NCBI RefSeq assembly: GCF_029910655.1
Contig: NZ_CP123897.1
Location: forward strand, 2,283,547-2,347,546
Direction: 5' to 3'
Length of the DNA: 64,000 bases
Source: Methylomonas sp. UP202
GTDB taxonomy: Bacteria; Pseudomonadota; Gammaproteobacteria; Methylococcales; Methylomonadaceae
Positions 40,142 to 48,053 of the stretch are shown in pieces. The notes beneath the pieces are model-generated. The model saw only the letters and a list, made by a program, of their open reading frames with translations. It had not been told where the DNA came from and made no database searches. Position 1 is the stretch's first letter. Each line of letters opens with the position of its first letter. Position numbers and translations under genes: made by a program.

Positions 40142-40294
40142 TGAAAACCGCCAAGAAGAAATTGCCGATCAAAAATTGCGTCACTTTATGTGATGATAGC
40201 CGGTTTAAGAAAGGGTCCGCCGGCCGGATTCGACGCTGACAAGCACCGAATCCGGCCGGCAGGCGCAATAATAATCACTGGAGAGGGGGAGTGC

Positions 40295-41047
40295 GTGGAA
40301 ACTTTGTTCGATATCGCTTTGCTGGCCATTGCGGCGTATGCCGCCAGGGCCTATTTGCTGCTGCCGGAGACGGTGCAGGATAGAGACATCTTTCCGAGCC
40401 GGGCGGCGACTTTCGTGACCCGCTTGGTTCGCGAGCAAAACCTTCGCGACGTGCTTGCCGATCGCGCCAAACCGGTTTCGATCGCCAATTCCGCCGCGGA
40501 GGCAGATGCGGTGGAGATCGTCGAAAACCCGGCCGCCGAGTTGACAACGGCGATCGAGGAAACCGCCCTTGTCGAGACGCCGGCCGAGTCGGCGACGGTA
40601 ACCGATGATGTTGAAACGATGGCCGAAGCGGCACCGCGCGTGCCGGAAGACTCCATCTTGAGCCGCCATTATTTCGCGCGACTGCTGGCTGAAAAAGCCG
40701 CGCTGGCCAATCCGTATCCGACCGAGTCGGTGTTGCGCCGGCACTATCGGCAACGTTTGGACGCGTTGCTTGATCTGAAAGCGTCGGATTCCGAGAGCGC
40801 TAGCGACCATGATGGAATTGAAGCAGCGCCCGATTTCGCCGATCCATCGGCGAATCTTGAGCTTGCGGATAGTGGTGCCAGCGTTTCGGTCGTCGTCCCA
40901 ACCGATTCGGTGTTGAGACGGCATTTTCTGGCGCAGCTACAACGGGAACTTGAGGCCGAATGGCCGGATAGTCCGACCGATTCGGTTTTAAAGCGCCATC
41001 GCCAACAGTGGTTGGAAGCGAAAATCGCCGCCCAACTTGGCGAATAA
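40295..41047 (+). CDS. Protein of unknown function with four DSVLRRH repeats
   Basis: A 250-aa protein starting at GTG 40,295, which has a strong ggagaggggga site; the frame upstream is open but lacks a ribosome binding site. The N-terminus has a short hydrophobic segment (TLFDIALLAIAAYAARAYLLL) that could be a membrane anchor. A long acidic Ala/Glu/Val-rich linker follows. Then come four copies of a motif: PEDSILSRHYFARLL (117-131), PTESVLRRHYRQRLD (142-156), PTDSVLRRHFLAQLQ (202-216) and PTDSVLKRHRQQWLE (227-241). The copies sit as two pairs spaced 25 residues apart. I recognise no domain; the repeats look like short basic helices. Confidence 0.75.
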   Translation: METLFDIALLAIAAYAARAYLLLPETVQDRDIFPSRAATFVTRLVREQNLRDVLADRAKPVSIANSAAEADAVEIVENPAAELTTAIEETALVETPAESATVTDDVETMAEAAPRVPEDSILSRHYFARLLAEKAALANPYPTESVLRRHYRQRLDALLDLKASDSESASDHDGIEAAPDFADPSANLELADSGASVSVVVPTDSVLRRHFLAQLQRELEAEWPDSPTDSVLKRHRQQWLEAKIAAQLGE

Positions 41048-41087: not shown

Positions 41088-41939
41088 TTAAACCGCTTGC
41101 GGCGCGGTTTGTTTACGCTTGCCGGTGCCGAGCAGGCCCAACAAACCGCTCAAAAATAGCCAGGTGGCGCCCGGCAGCGGGACCGCGGAAACGCCGGTCA
41201 ATGAAAAAGCTTGGTTGAACGGGGTGCCGCCGACAATATCGGTGCCGATCCGCAGCCAGTCGGGGGCCAGGTTTTCATCGCGTATCCAGGATTGCAGATC
41301 CGGCGAGAAGGGACCGCTGCCGCCAACGATGGGTTTGGCCGCCGACAACCACAGAAAATTGCCGTTCTTCAATTCCACCTGCGGCACGAAAAAGTAGTGA
41401 TCGGCGTCCAGCGTAATGGCTCGGCTGAAATCGATACTAACGTTGATTTCTCGACCGCTGACGGTGCCTTCGCCGCCGGTGGTTTGGTTCGGTAGCGGGT
41501 GAATGCCGTTCAATACCGAGTTGGCGGCGGTGGCGACATCGCCGAGCACGCTGACGCTGTAGCTCAGCGTGTTATCGGCCGAACCGCGCGATTCGAATGC
41601 CACGTCGGCGGGTGAATTGACCCGGGTCGGGACCCGGCCGGACGGCGGATTGACCGAGTCTTTATCGAAAACCCGGTAAATTTCCACATTGACGTTGGCA
41701 ATGTCGGCCAAGGTGGCGCCGTTGGCCAGCAAGCCGGTGAAACTGGCCTGGCGAAGTTGGGTTTTCTCGGCCAGGATGAAATCGTCGGCCGATTCGATCT
41801 CCGGACTGCTGGCGCCGGCTCGGGCGCCGACGGCGATTCTAAAGTCGGGGTCGCCGGTGCTGAAGCTAAAGGCCGAGGCTTCGTAAGACGTCGCGAACAA
41901 AGCGGACAAGGTCAGGACGGGAATAAATTTGTGTTGCAT
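41088..41939 (-). CDS. Exported protein with VPLPG-type C-terminal tail (283 aa)
   Basis: A signal peptide (MQHKFIPVLTLSALFATSYEASAF) precedes a beta-rich body with DDFILAEKTQLRQASFTGLL and FSRAITLDADHYFFVPQVEL. The C-terminal ending is VSAVPLPGATWLFLSGLLGL then GTGKRK: proline motif, membrane helix, basic residues, an exosortase-type tail. Length and layout resemble PEP-CTERM proteins of methanotrophs. The gene has a good sigma-54 promoter 84-100 nt upstream. Promoter and tail type are shared with the two other tail proteins in the window, which suggests a common regulon. The function is unknown. Confidence 0.85.
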   Translation of the reverse strand: MQHKFIPVLTLSALFATSYEASAFSFSTGDPDFRIAVGARAGASSPEIESADDFILAEKTQLRQASFTGLLANGATLADIANVNVEIYRVFDKDSVNPPSGRVPTRVNSPADVAFESRGSADNTLSYSVSVLGDVATAANSVLNGIHPLPNQTTGGEGTVSGREINVSIDFSRAITLDADHYFFVPQVELKNGNFLWLSAAKPIVGGSGPFSPDLQSWIRDENLAPDWLRIGTDIVGGTPFNQAFSLTGVSAVPLPGATWLFLSGLLGLLGTGKRKQTAPQAV

Positions 41940-42022
41940 GGTCGTTCTCCTAAATTGTAATGAGTCATGATGAGACGGAGTCTCCGATACCGAAACTGCT
42001 GACAGCTTCTGGCCATGACTAT

Positions 42023-42039
42023 TGCGAGCAGCGTGCCAA
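42023..42039 (-). promoter_or_regulatory. Sigma-54 (-24/-12) promoter for VPLPG-tail gene
   Basis: On the minus strand the site reads ttggcacgctgctcgca, matching TTGGCACG-N4-TTGCA at all but one consensus position, with exact GG-N10-GC spacing. It is the best sigma-54 promoter in the window, about 84 nt before the ATG. Confidence 0.78.
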
Positions 42040-42115: not shown

Positions 42116-42216
42116 GCGACGAAAGTTGCGGCGTTTTAGCCGAAATCCGCGGCGGACGCCGATCGGCGCCGGCTGACCTCATGCGTCGGCAAGGTGGACG
42201 CGGCAACTTTCGTCGC
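42116..42216. repeat. Inverted repeat, 14-bp arms, 73-nt spacer
   Basis: The arms are gcgacgaaagttgc (42,116-42,129) and its exact reverse complement (42,203-42,216). A repeated ccgcggcgg lies in and beside the spacer. It has no transposase and could be a small non-autonomous element, an operator pair or an RNA stem. Confidence 0.5.
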
Positions 42217-42318: not shown

Positions 42319-43299
42319 GTGAACCGGAAACGGTATCCGGGTATTTTGGCGATAGGCTGGCTCAGTCTCGCTTGCGCGGCTCTGGCGCGGGCGGAAGTAC
42401 CGCCGACATTGCTGCCGCTGCCGACGACGGTTGGCGGAGATCCGCAGCGTATTGCGCTGGGAAAGCGTTTGTTTCACGAGCCCAAGCTGTCCGATCAAGC
42501 CGCTCGCTCCTGCGCTAGTTGCCACCCGCTCGACCTGGGCGGCATGGACGGCAAGGCTCGCGCGGTATCGGCCGATGGGGTGGCGGTTTTGCGCAATACC
42601 CCCAGTTTGTTCAACGTGGCCTTCAATTACTTTTTCAATTGGGACGGCGTCGTGACGACGCTGGAAGCGCATACCGAAAAAGTCATGTTGAATCCAAATA
42701 TCATGAATGCCAAATGGCCGGGGGTGATCGCGCGCTTGGCCGGCGAGGCCGATTATGTCGCGGCCTTCGCGAATGCTTATCCGGACGGATTGACGCCGGC
42801 CAACGTCGTCGATGCCGTGACCAGTTTCGAGCGCAGTCTGGTGACGCCGAACGCCCGTTTCGATCGGTTTCTGCGCGGCGACAGCACGGCGTTGAGCGCC
42901 GAAGAACAACAGGGTTACCGTTTGTTCAACGATCTGGGCTGCGTGGCCTGCCATCAAGGTATCAATCTGGGCGGCAATTTGTTTCAAAAGTTCGGCGTGT
43001 TTGGCAGGCCGCCCAGCGCGGCTGAACTCATAGACGCCGGTCGCTATCTGGTCACCGGTAATCCTAGGGACAGCGGCGTGTTTCGCGTGCCCAGTTTGCG
43101 TAATGTCGCCGCCACTGCGCCGTATTTTCACGACGGGCGAGCCGCCGATCTGGAGACCGCGGTCAGCACGATGGCCAAATACCAGCTCGGCAAGCCTTTG
43201 GCCGAGCGGCAACGCGATTTGCTGGTCAAGTTTCTACATAGTTTGACCGGCGAATATCGGGGCAAATCGTTGCTCGCCGAGCCTTCCGCCAAGCCATGA
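42319..43299 (+). CDS. Di-heme cytochrome c peroxidase/MauG-family protein
   Basis: A 326-aa exported di-heme protein. The GTG at 42,319 starts a signal peptide (RYPGILAIGWLSLACAALARAE); a GTG at 42,259 with a better ribosome binding site would give a long non-signal extension. Heme motifs are CASCH (in ARSCASCHPLDLGGMDG) and CVACH (in LGCVACHQGINLGGN), with conserved FNVAFNYFFNWDG and VPSLRNVAATAPYFHDGR segments typical of bacterial cytochrome c peroxidases and MauG relatives. The stop overlaps the sensor kinase start by 4 nt (ATGA), so the two are translationally coupled. It may detect or process a redox-active compound in the periplasm. Confidence 0.88.
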   Translation: MNRKRYPGILAIGWLSLACAALARAEVPPTLLPLPTTVGGDPQRIALGKRLFHEPKLSDQAARSCASCHPLDLGGMDGKARAVSADGVAVLRNTPSLFNVAFNYFFNWDGVVTTLEAHTEKVMLNPNIMNAKWPGVIARLAGEADYVAAFANAYPDGLTPANVVDAVTSFERSLVTPNARFDRFLRGDSTALSAEEQQGYRLFNDLGCVACHQGINLGGNLFQKFGVFGRPPSAAELIDAGRYLVTGNPRDSGVFRVPSLRNVAATAPYFHDGRAADLETAVSTMAKYQLGKPLAERQRDLLVKFLHSLTGEYRGKSLLAEPSAKP

Positions 43300-45359
43300 C
43301 CGGCTTTTCCTGGAAACCCAGGTTGATAGTCGCCGCCTTGGTCGGTGCGATTACGTATCTTTGGATACAGAGTGCCAACCCGGAATTGGAACGGCGTAAT
43401 CGCTTGCAGGCGACGCTGCGGATCATCGAATTGCGCGACGCGGAATTGATGCGCGACATCTTGCTGACTAGGGCCGGATTGCTGACCAATTACGACGCAT
43501 TGACCCGGACCGGCCAATCTCTGCTGAATTTGTCTCGAGGTCTGCGCGACGAGCTGGCGGCTTCGGTAAGCCCCGAGCCGCGCCGGATGGGTGATCTGGC
43601 CGGCGCTTTATCGGCCGCGCTGCAAGACCGGCTGACGCAAATCGAATATCTGAAATCCGACAATGCCTTGTTGCGTAATTCGGTGATGTCCTTCAACGAG
43701 ATCGGTAGAAACCTACAGCTAAGCGCCAATCCGGCCGACAGCGCCAGGCTCACCAATTTGTGGCGGTTGATGGCCGGCTTTTTGGAAAATGCCGGGCCTG
43801 AGTCGGCGCGGGAGCTTGAACAGGAGCTGGAGCGTTTATCCGGGCTGAATTCTCAGTCCGACGATTATCAGGTGTTAATTGCCCATGGCCGATTGATTGT
43901 CGAGGTTTTGCCCAAGGTCGACGCGGCGTTGCAATCCATCATCGGCCAGCCGATTTTAAGCCGGATCGACGACTTGCAACACGCTTTGCGTCTTTACGGC
44001 GACGGCGCCGAACGGCGCGCTGAACACTTTCGCTTGGCGTTGTATCTGGTGGCGGTGCTGTTGGCGGCGTATCTGTTGTATCAGTTCGCGTTGTTAAGGT
44101 CGCATACCTTGGCGTTGCGTAGGGCGCACGCCAGTTTGAAACAGGAGATAGGCGAACGCTTGCAGGCGGAGTCCTGGTTGCGGGAAAGCGAAGCCCGCTT
44201 GCGGGCTATTACCGATTCGGCGCGCGAAGCGATCGTTTCGGTGGATGCCGGCGGCAACCTCGTTTCCTGGAACCGGGGCGCGGCGTTAATGTTCGGGGAG
44301 GCTGCCGAAGAGGCCCTCGGGACGTCGAGCCAACGTTTCTGGATGGCGATACAAGCGCAATTGCAAGCGGAAGCCGATGCGACCGACCGGATGATAAATC
44401 CAATCACCGAATCGCTTGGAATACGTCGGGACGGTGAGACGTTTCCGATCGAAGTCTCACTCTCCCATTGGACCCGAGGCGAGGAGCGCTTTTCGACCGC
44501 GATCATTCGGGACATCAGCGCACGCAGACAATTGGAAGCGGTGGCCAGACAACAGGAGCTGCAACTGATACAAGCCAACAAAATGACCGCTTTGGGCACT
44601 TTGGTATCCGGGGTCGCGCACGAAATCAACAATCCAAATCAACTGATTTTGTTGAACGCCGGTTTGCTGGCCGATATTTGGAGCGACGCGCTGGAGATTT
44701 TGGACGATCGCTACCGGGCCGGCGGCGAGTTCTCGTTGGCCGGTTTGTCGTATACCGAGTTGCGCGCTAGCGCTGGCGTCTTGATAGACGACATCGGAGA
44801 CGGTGCCAAACGCATCGAGCGCATCGTGGCCGACCTGAAACATTACGCTCGTCCGCAAACCGAACAGGCGGGCGCCGCATTTTCGCTGAACGAGGCGGTG
44901 GAGCGCGCGGTTCGTTTGGTTAGACACGTGATTGCTCGTAAAACCGATCACTTCGAAATCCGGTTGGATTCGGCGCTACCGCCGCTGCAAGGCGACCCGC
45001 GGCAGGTGGAACAAGTCGTCGTGAATTTATTGATTAACGGGCTGGACGCTCTCACCGATACCGACCAGACGCTCGGCGTGACAACCCGCCGGCTGGACGA
45101 CGAGGGCGAGGTCTGCGTCGAGGTCATGGATCAGGGATGCGGCATTTCCCCCGAACACATTCAACAACTGTGCGACCCGTTTTTTACCACCAAGCAAGCG
45201 TGCGGCGGTACCGGATTGGGTCTTGCGATCAGCGCTTCGCTGATGCGCGCCCACGGCGGCCGCTTGAACTTTTCGTCCGAACCGGGGCGGGGCACGGTGG
45301 CTCAAGCTATTTTTCCGGTTAACTCCAAACCCTGGTCGGCGGCCGAACATGCGGACTAA
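43296..45359 (+). CDS. Sensor histidine kinase with periplasmic DAHL-type and PAS domains
   Basis: A 687-aa membrane kinase. Membrane helix 1 is about 8-26. An all-helical periplasmic region of about 220 residues contains LKSDNALLRNSVMSF, typical of DAHL (double all-helical ligand-binding) domains. Helix 2 is about 247-267, followed by a short coiled coil, a PAS domain (about 300-410), a HisKA box with H442 in VSGVAHEINNPNQ, and an ATPase with NLLINGLDAL, MDQGCGI, DPFFTTK and GTGLGLAIS. It is co-translated with the di-heme cytochrome and overlaps its response regulator by 11 nt. The three genes form one signalling unit. Confidence 0.92.
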   Translation: MTGFSWKPRLIVAALVGAITYLWIQSANPELERRNRLQATLRIIELRDAELMRDILLTRAGLLTNYDALTRTGQSLLNLSRGLRDELAASVSPEPRRMGDLAGALSAALQDRLTQIEYLKSDNALLRNSVMSFNEIGRNLQLSANPADSARLTNLWRLMAGFLENAGPESARELEQELERLSGLNSQSDDYQVLIAHGRLIVEVLPKVDAALQSIIGQPILSRIDDLQHALRLYGDGAERRAEHFRLALYLVAVLLAAYLLYQFALLRSHTLALRRAHASLKQEIGERLQAESWLRESEARLRAITDSAREAIVSVDAGGNLVSWNRGAALMFGEAAEEALGTSSQRFWMAIQAQLQAEADATDRMINPITESLGIRRDGETFPIEVSLSHWTRGEERFSTAIIRDISARRQLEAVARQQELQLIQANKMTALGTLVSGVAHEINNPNQLILLNAGLLADIWSDALEILDDRYRAGGEFSLAGLSYTELRASAGVLIDDIGDGAKRIERIVADLKHYARPQTEQAGAAFSLNEAVERAVRLVRHVIARKTDHFEIRLDSALPPLQGDPRQVEQVVVNLLINGLDALTDTDQTLGVTTRRLDDEGEVCVEVMDQGCGISPEHIQQLCDPFFTTKQACGGTGLGLAISASLMRAHGGRLNFSSEPGRGTVAQAIFPVNSKPWSAAEHAD

Positions 45360-46773
45360 AGCGTTAAACCCGTTACCGATTTTATTGGTCGACGACGAAT
45401 CCCAGATACTGCATAGCGCCAGTTTGGTCTTGCGCGGCGCCGGCCATGCCGAGGTATTGACGCTGGACGACAGCCGAGCGGTTTTACCGTTGTTGGCCGA
45501 ACGGCCGGTTGGTGTGATCGTGCTGGACTTGACGATGCCGCATCTGTCCGGATTGGCGTTGCTGGCCTCGATTGCTGCCGAATATCCGGAGATCGCCGTG
45601 ATCGTGATGACCGCCACCAACGATTTGCCGACTGCGGTGGAATGCATGCGTAACGGCGCCAGCGACTATTTGCTGAAACCGGTCGAGCGCGATTGTCTGG
45701 TTGCCGCGGTACGCCGAGCCGTCGAAGCGCGGTTGCTGCGGGCCGAGTTGCTGTCGTTGAAGGACTGCTTGTTGTCCAACCAGCCGCACCAGCCGAGCCG
45801 CTTCGAAGAAATCGTTACCCAAAGTCCGGCGATGTTTGCGATTTTTCGTTACATCGAAGCCGTCGCCGCGTCGCCGCAACCGGTGTTGATCAGCGGCGAA
45901 ACCGGCACCGGCAAGGAATTGATCGCCCGCGCCCTGCATCGGCAGTCCGGCCGGCCCGGCGAATTGGTGGCGGTGAACGTTGCCGGATTGGACGACAACC
46001 TGTTTGCCGACACCTTGTTCGGCCATGCGAAAGGTTCGTTTACCGGAGCGGACCGCGCGCGCGACGGTTTGATCGCCAGTACCGGTGACGGTACATTGTT
46101 TCTGGATGAAATCGGCGACTTGAGCATCGCGTCGCAGGTCAAGCTGTTACGCTTGCTGCAGGATGGCTCTTACTATCCGATTGGCGCGGACCGGCCGCGC
46201 CAGAGCCGGGCGCGCATCGTGGTCGCCACGCATTGCGACGTCAAGCGCCAAGCCGAACAGGGCGGGTTTCGCAAGGATTTGTACTTCCGGCTGCGCACCC
46301 ATCATATTCAATTGCCGCCGCTCCGCGAACGCCGCGAGGATTTGCCGCAACTGACCTTGCATTTTGTCGAGAAAGCGGCGGCCAGCCTGGGCAGACCGGC
46401 GCCGAACGTGCCGCCGGCATTGTTTCAATGGTTGGAGAATTACCGTTTTCCGGGCAATATCCGCGAGTTGGAAGGCTTGATGTTCGATGCGGTCGCTCGC
46501 AGTCAGGGTTCGGTGCTATCGTTGCAAAGCGTGAAGGACGCGATCGCCGACGAAGGCTTCGGCAATCGGTCGGGCGACGCCGCCGGGGAATTTGCCGCGC
46601 CGGCCGCCGAATTTCCGGAGCGCTTGCCGACGTTGAAAGAAGCCGAGGAAGCCTTGATCGGCGAGGCCTTGCGCCGTGCCCAGGGTAATCAGGGCGTTGC
46701 CGCCGGCTTGCTGGGTATTAGCCGGCAAGCGCTGAACAAACGTTTGACTCGGCGCGACGCGGATGGCTTTTGA
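45349..46773 (+). CDS. NtrC-family sigma-54 response regulator
   Basis: A 474-aa regulator with a receiver domain (D60 phosphoacceptor in VIVLDLTMP, acidic pair near 15-16, K110 in LLKPVE). The AAA+ domain has Walker A GETGTGKE (183-190), GSFTGA loop (229-234) and Walker B TLFLDE (249-254). The C-terminal Fis-type helix-turn-helix is near 445-465 (NQGVAAGLLGISRQALNKRL). Its start overlaps the kinase gene, marking it as the cognate partner. It would activate sigma-54 promoters. Candidates in this window are those of the VPxPG-tail genes and a weak site before the cytochrome gene itself, but the link is an inference. A bidirectional terminator follows. Confidence 0.94.
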   Translation: MRTKALNPLPILLVDDESQILHSASLVLRGAGHAEVLTLDDSRAVLPLLAERPVGVIVLDLTMPHLSGLALLASIAAEYPEIAVIVMTATNDLPTAVECMRNGASDYLLKPVERDCLVAAVRRAVEARLLRAELLSLKDCLLSNQPHQPSRFEEIVTQSPAMFAIFRYIEAVAASPQPVLISGETGTGKELIARALHRQSGRPGELVAVNVAGLDDNLFADTLFGHAKGSFTGADRARDGLIASTGDGTLFLDEIGDLSIASQVKLLRLLQDGSYYPIGADRPRQSRARIVVATHCDVKRQAEQGGFRKDLYFRLRTHHIQLPPLRERREDLPQLTLHFVEKAAASLGRPAPNVPPALFQWLENYRFPGNIRELEGLMFDAVARSQGSVLSLQSVKDAIADEGFGNRSGDAAGEFAAPAAEFPERLPTLKEAEEALIGEALRRAQGNQGVAAGLLGISRQALNKRLTRRDADGF

Positions 46774-46865: not shown

Positions 46866-48053
46866 TTAACGGTCGGTGCGTTTGTAGACGACGCGGCGGT
46901 TGTAAGCGCGGCCCTCGTCGGTTTCGTTGGTATCGACCGGTTGCGATTCGCCGAAGCCTTCCGCGGTCAGACGTTTGCCGTCGACGCCTTGTTTGATCAA
47001 CTCGTTTCTGACCGCGTTGGCGCGGCGTTGCGACAGTTTTTCGTTATAGGCGTCGCTGCCGTAGCTGTCGGTATGACCTTGAATCTCAACCGTCAGGCCC
47101 GGATTCAGCTTCATCACTTCGACCGCGTTTTGGATCAGTGGGTGGTATTTGGATTTGATGTCGGACTTGTCGAAGTCGAACAATACGCCGCGGAACGCCC
47201 AGCAACCGTCTTTATCGACGATCGCGCCTTTCGGGGTGTCGGGGCATTTGTCGGAGCAGTTGTTGACGCCGTCCTTATCGTCGTCCTGTTTCGAGCAGTC
47301 GGCGACGGCTGGCGGATTGCCGGCTTTCAGGAATACGTTTTTAACGAAGTCGCTCATGCCTTTCGGAGAGCTGATTGCATCGGCCGTGGTCGAAAAGCCG
47401 CAACCGCCGGCATCGGCGATTTGTTGCAATTCGGCTTGCCCGGCAGCGTCTTCGTCGTTACCGACCCACACCGTGTAGATGCATAAGCGGTCGCCGTACT
47501 GAGCTTTCAGGGCGGCGGCGGCCGGGGCGGGCGAGGACTCTTCTATGCCGTCGCTCAATACGATCAGCGCCAAATTGCCGGTGCCGCCGGCCAGGTCTTG
47601 GTTGGTCGCTTCCAACGCAGTTGCCAACGGGGTACCGCCGCTGGAACAGGTCAACGAACTTAGCGAGCTTTCGAAACCGGCTTGAGTGTAGCTTTGCAGC
47701 GGCTGGTTCAACTTAGTCGCGCTCCAATCCAGGCAAGGGCCGAAACCGAAGCTGCGCAGGCCGGAAGTCAACGGGATGCTGGGAATGGATTTGTTGAATT
47801 TGTTGAGCAGGTTTTTCTCGACATCGAGTTTGGTACCGCTGTATTCGGCAGAATTGACGAAGGTGCGGCTCATCGAAGAGGACGAATCGTTGACGACCAG
47901 GAAGCTATTGGTTTTCTGAACCAGTTTTCCGGATTTGACCAAGGCGTTCAGGTCTTCGGGTTGGAATGCCTGGAAGGTATTGCTCGATTGAGTCGCGCAA
48001 CCGGACAAAATAGCGCCCGCCAAGCCGGCCGTAACGAGTAAGGTTTTTTTCAT
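46866..48053 (-). CDS. vWA-OmpA fusion lipoprotein
   Basis: A 395-aa outer-membrane lipoprotein. A signal peptide with lipobox LSGC (C19) comes first. A von Willebrand A-like domain follows (FLVVNDSSSSMSRTF with an incomplete MIDAS D-x-S-x-S, and IVLSDGIEESS). A calcium-type thrombospondin-3 stretch comes next (DDDKDGVNNCSDKCPDTPKGAIVDKDGCW). The C-terminal OmpA/MotB peptidoglycan-binding domain contains VLFDFDKSDIKSKYHPLI, IQGHTDSYGSDAYNEKLSQRRANAV and GFGESQPVDTN. It probably tethers the outer membrane to peptidoglycan while the vWA part faces partners. The ATG has an AGGAG site. Eight cysteines suggest disulfides. Confidence 0.9.
   Translation of the reverse strand: MKKTLLVTAGLAGAILSGCATQSSNTFQAFQPEDLNALVKSGKLVQKTNSFLVVNDSSSSMSRTFVNSAEYSGTKLDVEKNLLNKFNKSIPSIPLTSGLRSFGFGPCLDWSATKLNQPLQSYTQAGFESSLSSLTCSSGGTPLATALEATNQDLAGGTGNLALIVLSDGIEESSPAPAAAALKAQYGDRLCIYTVWVGNDEDAAGQAELQQIADAGGCGFSTTADAISSPKGMSDFVKNVFLKAGNPPAVADCSKQDDDKDGVNNCSDKCPDTPKGAIVDKDGCWAFRGVLFDFDKSDIKSKYHPLIQNAVEVMKLNPGLTVEIQGHTDSYGSDAYNEKLSQRRANAVRNELIKQGVDGKRLTAEGFGESQPVDTNETDEGRAYNRRVVYKRTDR

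Follow-up and report, generated by a model that had tools for sequence, protein, structure and literature searches.

A di-heme cytochrome, a DAHL sensor kinase and an NtrC-type regulator as a putative periplasmic heme-sensing cassette for a PEP-CTERM gene in Methylomonas sp. UP202

The window analysed here, a 64,000-nucleotide stretch of the Methylomonas sp. UP202 chromosome, covers 2.28-2.35 Mb of the 5.68 Mb genome, and the nearest named relatives at the locus were Methylomonas species. As summarized in Table 1, it carries genes for a cytochrome, a sensor kinase and a response regulator, which face a divergent gene across an intergenic region containing a sigma-54 promoter and several dyads. 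The cytochrome and kinase genes overlap by 4 nt and the kinase and regulator genes by 11 nt, coordinates and overlaps being the same as in the initial annotation of this DNA, and the operon was thereby confirmed. The GTG start assigned to the cytochrome gene was in agreement with those of its orthologues. Next to the end of the operon, the complementary strand encodes, at positions 46866-48053, a lipoprotein with VWA-like and OmpA domains and, as judged by eye, Ca-binding-type repeats. In a further ORF (40190-41047), which had no Pfam match, a P[TE]DS[VI]L[RSK]RH-like motif occurs four times.

Table 1. Features of the operon and of the adjoining divergent region (positions in the window).
Feature	Position	Strand	Remarks
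PEP-CTERM surface protein, predicted target	41088..41939	-	C-terminal sorting signal; divergent from cassette
18-bp dyad GAAGCTGTCAGCAGTTTC	41992..42009	-	about +3 to +20 of predicted PEP-CTERM transcript
Sigma-54 promoter TGGCACGCTGCTCGCA of PEP-CTERM gene	42023..42038	-	conserved position in related genomes
UAS1 GCGACGAAAGTTGC, proposed regulator site	42116..42129	+	centre about 110 bp upstream of predicted PEP-CTERM start
UAS2, same 14-mer as UAS1	42203..42216	-	centre about 197 bp upstream of predicted start
Di-heme CCP-like periplasmic protein	42319..43299	+	PF03150; GTG start, TGA stop, signal peptide
DAHL-PAS-histidine kinase	43296..45359	+	PF19443; ATG start, TAA stop
NtrC-type response regulator	45349..46773	+	PF00072, PF00158, PF02954; ATG start, TGA stop

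The cytochrome matched the Pfam CCP_MauG family (E = 1.9e-47) and possesses two CxxCH motifs, at residues 65 and 208. Alignment with the di-heme peroxidase (CCP) of Nitrosomonas (1iqc) and with 61 other DAHL-linked CCPs placed Met285 at the ligand position and Trp108 as the bridging Trp, and revealed His118 in place of the catalytic Gln and Ile128 in place of the Glu, so that the active-site Gln/Glu pair of CCP was missing. The Met ligand of the electron-transfer heme and the bridging Trp were present in all 62 DAHL-linked CCPs, the Methylomonas cytochrome included, and each of these 62 aligned sequences lacked the distal His, which in resting CCPs caps the peroxidatic heme. The catalytic Glu was kept in 44/62 and the Gln in 50/62; in the clade of the operon (Methylomonas, Crenothrix, Competibacteraceae and Bryobacteraceae), the Gln was replaced by His and the Glu by a hydrophobic residue such as Ile, Val or Leu. 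The roles of the Gln, the Glu and the distal His are those of established CCP biochemistry. Because the Gln/Glu pair is replaced here and a separate canonical CCP with both residues intact is encoded in the same genome, the copy in the operon is probably not a normal peroxidase.

A profile of six cytochrome orthologues searched against the PDB retrieved 9qdt, which we take to be E. coli YhjA, with E = 5.5e-79 and 1iqc with E = 2.6e-68, and MauG with about 1e-22. Likewise, the cytochrome scored 150.7 bits against the NCBIfam cut-off of 443.85 bits for MauG and 164.6 bits against that of 362.85 bits for MbnH. It thus shares with MauG and MbnH the PF03150 superfamily and the secreted location, but scores below both family cut-offs and carries Met where MauG has a Tyr ligand. 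With the di-heme CCPs 1iqc and 9qdt, it has in common the fold family, the two CxxCH motifs, the Met ligand and the bridging Trp, and it differs from them in lacking the distal His, in the replacement of Gln and Glu within its clade, and in the coupling of its gene to that of a receptor. By these comparisons, the cytochrome is closer to the classical, Met-ligated CCP than to the Tyr-ligated MauG; of the initial description as MauG/peroxidase-like, the peroxidase part was therefore retained and the MauG part was abandoned on the basis of the Met ligand and the family scores.

The kinase contains a DAHL domain (E = 7.2e-46; 157.1 bits against a gathering threshold of 38), which is periplasmic and flanked by two membrane helices, and also matched PAS and HATPase; the H-box AHEINN lies at 441 and GTGLGL at 638. 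An AlphaFold2 model of the sensor domain was all-helical with a mean pLDDT of 86. In VIA-align comparisons, this predicted model matched the TorS sensor domain 3i9y with a Z of 16.7 over 200 residues at 2.9 Å, 3i9w and the TorS-TorT complexes with a Z of about 14.6 (TorS range 14.5-16.7), and the McpS ligand-binding domain with a Z of 16.0. TorS and McpS were the best natural matches in the PDB; a designed bundle scored equally high, and the fold match alone is thus weak evidence. A search of solved structures with the DAHL sequence gave chance hits only. TorS, of the TMAO system of E. coli and Vibrio, is the textbook example of a kinase sensing through a separate protein in the periplasm, in its case TorT. 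A two-module all-helical sensor domain and, as predicted here, a periplasmic protein partner are shared between TorT-TorS and the operon, whereas the partner is a periplasmic binding protein in the former and a di-heme CCP in the latter, the output of which is an NtrC-type regulator with sigma-54. Four polar residues of the DAHL domain, D67, K120, N128 and H197, were near-invariant and could form a pocket.

The regulator has the receiver Asp, a Walker A sequence GETGTGKE, a GAFTGA-type loop (GSFTGA) and a Fis-type HTH, and its earlier naming as an NtrC-type protein was confirmed by the receiver, sigma-54 activator and Fis-type HTH domains that were found. Like PrsK-PrsR, the regulators of XrtA/PEP-CTERM systems, the operon links a kinase and an NtrC-type regulator to a PEP-CTERM gene. 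Membership in that pair was nevertheless rejected, since the scores of 71 and 270 bits fell below the NCBIfam equivalog cut-offs of 300 and 502.6; to our knowledge, neither a DAHL input nor a CCP is part of PrsK-PrsR.

The initial annotation had placed a tail-protein gene behind the divergent promoter, which is incorrect if a phage tail was meant: the gene encodes a PEP-CTERM protein with the C-terminus VPLPGATWLFLSGLLGLLGTGKRKQ, and the PEP-CTERM-type gene said elsewhere in that annotation to adjoin the operon is indeed there. The sorting signal is common to 38 other places in the genome, and the body of the protein has no close copy in the genome. Its AlphaFold model reached a pLDDT of 36 and was left out of the analysis. 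The sigma-54 site TGGCACGCTGCTCGCA deviates from the consensus by one mismatch, in the -12 box; TGGCACGNNNNTYGCW is matched exactly at six places in 5.7 Mb, this site among them. The promoter claimed earlier was further substantiated by an identical or nearly identical site at the same place in at least five related loci.

The exact 14-mer GCGACGAAAGTTGC occurs in the genome as UAS1 and UAS2 only. Much of the intergenic region has diverged among Methylomonas genomes; it keeps the sigma-54 site TGGCACGCTRCTCGCA (with two changes in one orthologue) and two oppositely oriented dyads, 87 bp apart, that closely resemble GCGACGAAAGTTGC; of these, UAS1 was invariant in the aligned orthologues. No larger regulon was found, exact 14-mer sites being confined to the PEP-CTERM promoter, and no good sigma-54 site lay within 350 bp of any other dyad among the 30 site loci examined. 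The 18-bp dyad downstream of the promoter (GAAACTGCTGACAGCTTC) has no second copy in the genome and hardly varies among orthologues. It was dismissed as a genome-wide PEP-CTERM box for want of another exact copy in the genome, and could represent a 7-bp hairpin at the 5' end of the mRNA or a second regulator or protein site.

Among the sampled Methylomonas genomes, the PEP-CTERM gene was present in exactly the five that bear the kinase and absent from the seven without it. A PEP-CTERM homologue in another genus, in a genome without a match to the cassette, had neither the dyad nor a good sigma-54 site upstream. These observations provide strong comparative evidence that the regulator acts at the dyads of the PEP-CTERM promoter, and the cytochrome-kinase-regulator unit very probably turns on the neighbouring PEP-CTERM gene.

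Of 151 genomes in the family, 8 carried an orthologue of the kinase; others were detected in Competibacteraceae and in an Acidobacteriota metagenome-assembled genome (MAG). The three-gene order was kept in Methylomonas, Methylocucumis, Crenothrix, Competibacteraceae and Bryobacteraceae, and the linkage of cytochrome and kinase in other genomes, on which the initial annotation had made its proposal depend, was observed at every orthologous locus with a sufficiently long contig. The neighbourhoods differ: an OmpA-type lipoprotein gene and gltX adjoin the cassette here, and a fructose-bisphosphate aldolase-like gene does so in other Methylomonas. The location of orthologues in different neighbourhoods, together with their occurrence in Competibacteraceae and the Acidobacteriota MAG, suggests that the cassette has been transferred as a unit.

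The enhancer-site search among distant DAHL loci covered the operon's own clade. The cassettes of Crenothrix and of a Methylococcaceae MAG have no PEP-CTERM gene next to them; there, dyads of the same class with a sigma-54 site (TGGCACGGTAWTCGCT) lay between the regulator gene and genes for other secreted proteins, namely an RTX-repeat protein or an uncharacterised 350-residue protein. The Bryobacteraceae locus has its GCAAC-N4-GTTGC dyad and sigma-54 site upstream of the cassette itself, before the CCP gene; at the Methylocucumis and Competibacteraceae loci, no such site was found. The expected conservation of an adjacent PEP-CTERM gene was upheld within the genus, where it accompanies the cassette; between genera, the target gene differs. 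Two of these loci showed further features. At L071 (5208-8363), two copies of the 350-residue secreted protein, the first of them preceded by a sigma-54 site and a dyad of the regulator type, flank a collagen-like/TIG protein. In Crenothrix (L073, 13781-16410), RTX-repeat and DUF3455 proteins are encoded behind regulator dyads, followed on the opposite strand by the gene for a canonical di-heme CCP.

The association of CCP with DAHL was then surveyed at large. A DAHL model matched in 61 of 349 evenly drawn Pseudomonadota genomes, and 60 DAHL loci were read with about 6 kb per side where the contig allowed (682 kb in total). At 55 of the 60 loci, from at least 11 families, the gene immediately preceding the DAHL gene, in the same orientation, encoded a CCP, and the two mostly overlapped by 4 nt (ATGA); at two loci (L150 and L160), the pair was found by a six-frame profile search. 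Of the five loci without an adjacent CCP, one was under the DAHL cut-off and one was on a 4-kb contig. The 682 kb contained no second CCP frame, and the 1.5-kb flanks of 20 kinase loci that gave no match to DAHL contained no CCP at all. The ten DAHL-linked proteins that were scanned ended in a histidine kinase, a hybrid kinase or GGDEF/EAL domains, showing that the input is constant and the output variable. Two such loci, in which DAHL is fused to GGDEF-EAL (L128, 5971-8964) or GGDEF (L178, 5434-6774) with a CCP directly upstream, possibly constitute heme-gated cyclic-di-GMP switches.

Furthermore, CCP was found to covary more closely with DAHL than with the kinase domain to which DAHL is joined. 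Across 52 pairs, the distance correlation was 0.59 for CCP-DAHL and 0.38 for CCP-HATPase within the same proteins (bootstrap interval of the difference 0.08-0.32), and remained 0.57 versus 0.38 when column numbers were matched by subsampling; the partial correlations were 0.49 and 0.06. For very distant pairs, the covariation was weak (0.14 versus -0.04).

A comparable arrangement can be recognized in Campylobacter jejuni. Its chemoreceptor Tlp10 bears a DAHL domain and is reported to detect several ligand classes, including malate (PMC9796306); Tlp10 is DocB, and docA, a putative CcP gene, lies immediately upstream of docB (PMC3156733). According to the same review, C. jejuni CcPs make no contribution to peroxide resistance, and docA mutants colonise chicks more poorly (PMC3156733). 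Since DocB carries DAHL and docA adjoins it upstream, we infer that docA-docB is a CCP-DAHL pair with phenotypes fitting a sensory role. DocA-DocB thus resembles the operon in the order of CcP gene and DAHL receptor gene and in a CcP devoid of a peroxide-defence phenotype (PMC3156733, PMC9796306), although its receptor is a chemoreceptor, not a kinase, and the likeness is drawn from published descriptions, not from sequence. In the open-access literature searched, with the subscription literature mostly outside its range, we found no co-sensor role proposed for DocA and no paper that treats docA-docB as such a pair.

The occurrence of a CCP beside DAHL in dozens of unrelated bacteria makes the heme protein a likely part of the sensor, so that the earlier idea of a sensing link between cytochrome and kinase is supported and widened. 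We favour, with moderate confidence, a scheme in which the CCP is a dedicated periplasmic co-sensor of DAHL, and the regulator, the dyads and the sigma-54 promoter drive the PEP-CTERM gene. Here, the absence of the distal His predicts an open sixth site on the peroxidatic heme, and, given that the clade has lost the catalytic Gln/Glu pair, the cytochrome probably reports the redox or ligand state of its heme (peroxide, O2, NO or respiratory-chain redox), not peroxide turnover. It would dock on the all-helical DAHL domain as TorT does on TorS, a predicted contact to which gene linkage and covariation point indirectly; the kinase would then phosphorylate the regulator, which in turn would bind the two GCRAC-N4-GTYGC dyads and activate the sigma-54 promoter.

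Alternatively, the CCP might be a working enzyme that removes or makes a small molecule, such as peroxide or an oxidised compound, to be bound by DAHL with no contact between the proteins. As the catalytic Glu is kept in 44 of the 62 linked CCPs, and the Gln in 50, the CCP may be an active enzyme in most pairs; moreover, the detection of organic ligands by Tlp10 implies that DAHL need not require a protein partner (PMC9796306), and the near-invariant polar residues could supply a pocket for such a ligand. This explanation is nonetheless unlikely, though not negligible, in view of the replacement of both catalytic residues in the operon and its clade, the reported lack of a CcP role in peroxide resistance of C. 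jejuni (PMC3156733), and the specific covariation of CCP with DAHL.

Less probable still is a CCP that acts as an output of the operon, or is carried in it as a passenger, for periplasmic peroxide defence, with a kinase that senses something unrelated. Co-transcription by itself would yield the linkage, and the sigma-54 promoter and dyad before the CCP gene in Bryobacteraceae indicate that the cassette can be autoregulated. However, CCP is linked to DAHL across output types such as GGDEF and hybrid kinases, for which no common regulated operon is expected, and the CCP of the operon has lost its catalytic residues. In methanotrophs, MbnH-like enzymes act on copper proteins that are secreted, and a MauG/MbnH-like maturase that modifies the adjacent secreted protein and is merely controlled by the two-component system would accord with this, with the CCP_MauG family membership and with the secreted neighbour, but is very improbable: the axial position is Met, not Tyr, in 62/62, the scores are far below the MauG and MbnH cut-offs, the target gene changes between genera while the CCP stays, and one PEP-CTERM homologue has no CCP in its vicinity. 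Maturation of the PEP-CTERM protein in the manner of MauG was accordingly rejected, the Met ligand and the changing target genes ruling against it.

Genome annotation routinely assigns bacterial di-heme peroxidases to the detoxification of peroxide, and for most DAHL receptors we know of no established signal. Returning to the co-sensor scheme, we lean slightly toward the broader view that CCP and DAHL constitute a widespread and apparently unrecognised periplasmic heme sensory module, extending over Pseudomonadota and Acidobacteriota in this study and Campylobacterota in the literature, and that many annotated CCPs, including docA, are sensors and not enzymes of detoxification. What is new is the linkage of CCP and DAHL across Pseudomonadota whatever the output domain, the placing of docA-docB in this scheme, and the predicted dedicated target of the regulator. 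The operon itself offers a clean genetic test bed, comprising one sensor, one regulator, one predicted target and two enhancer sites. If CCP and DAHL do form one sensor, the module would plug into kinases, cyclic-di-GMP enzymes and a Campylobacter chemoreceptor, CcPs without an effect on peroxide resistance, such as Campylobacter docA, would gain a proposed function, and the signal class of many receptors would become predictable.
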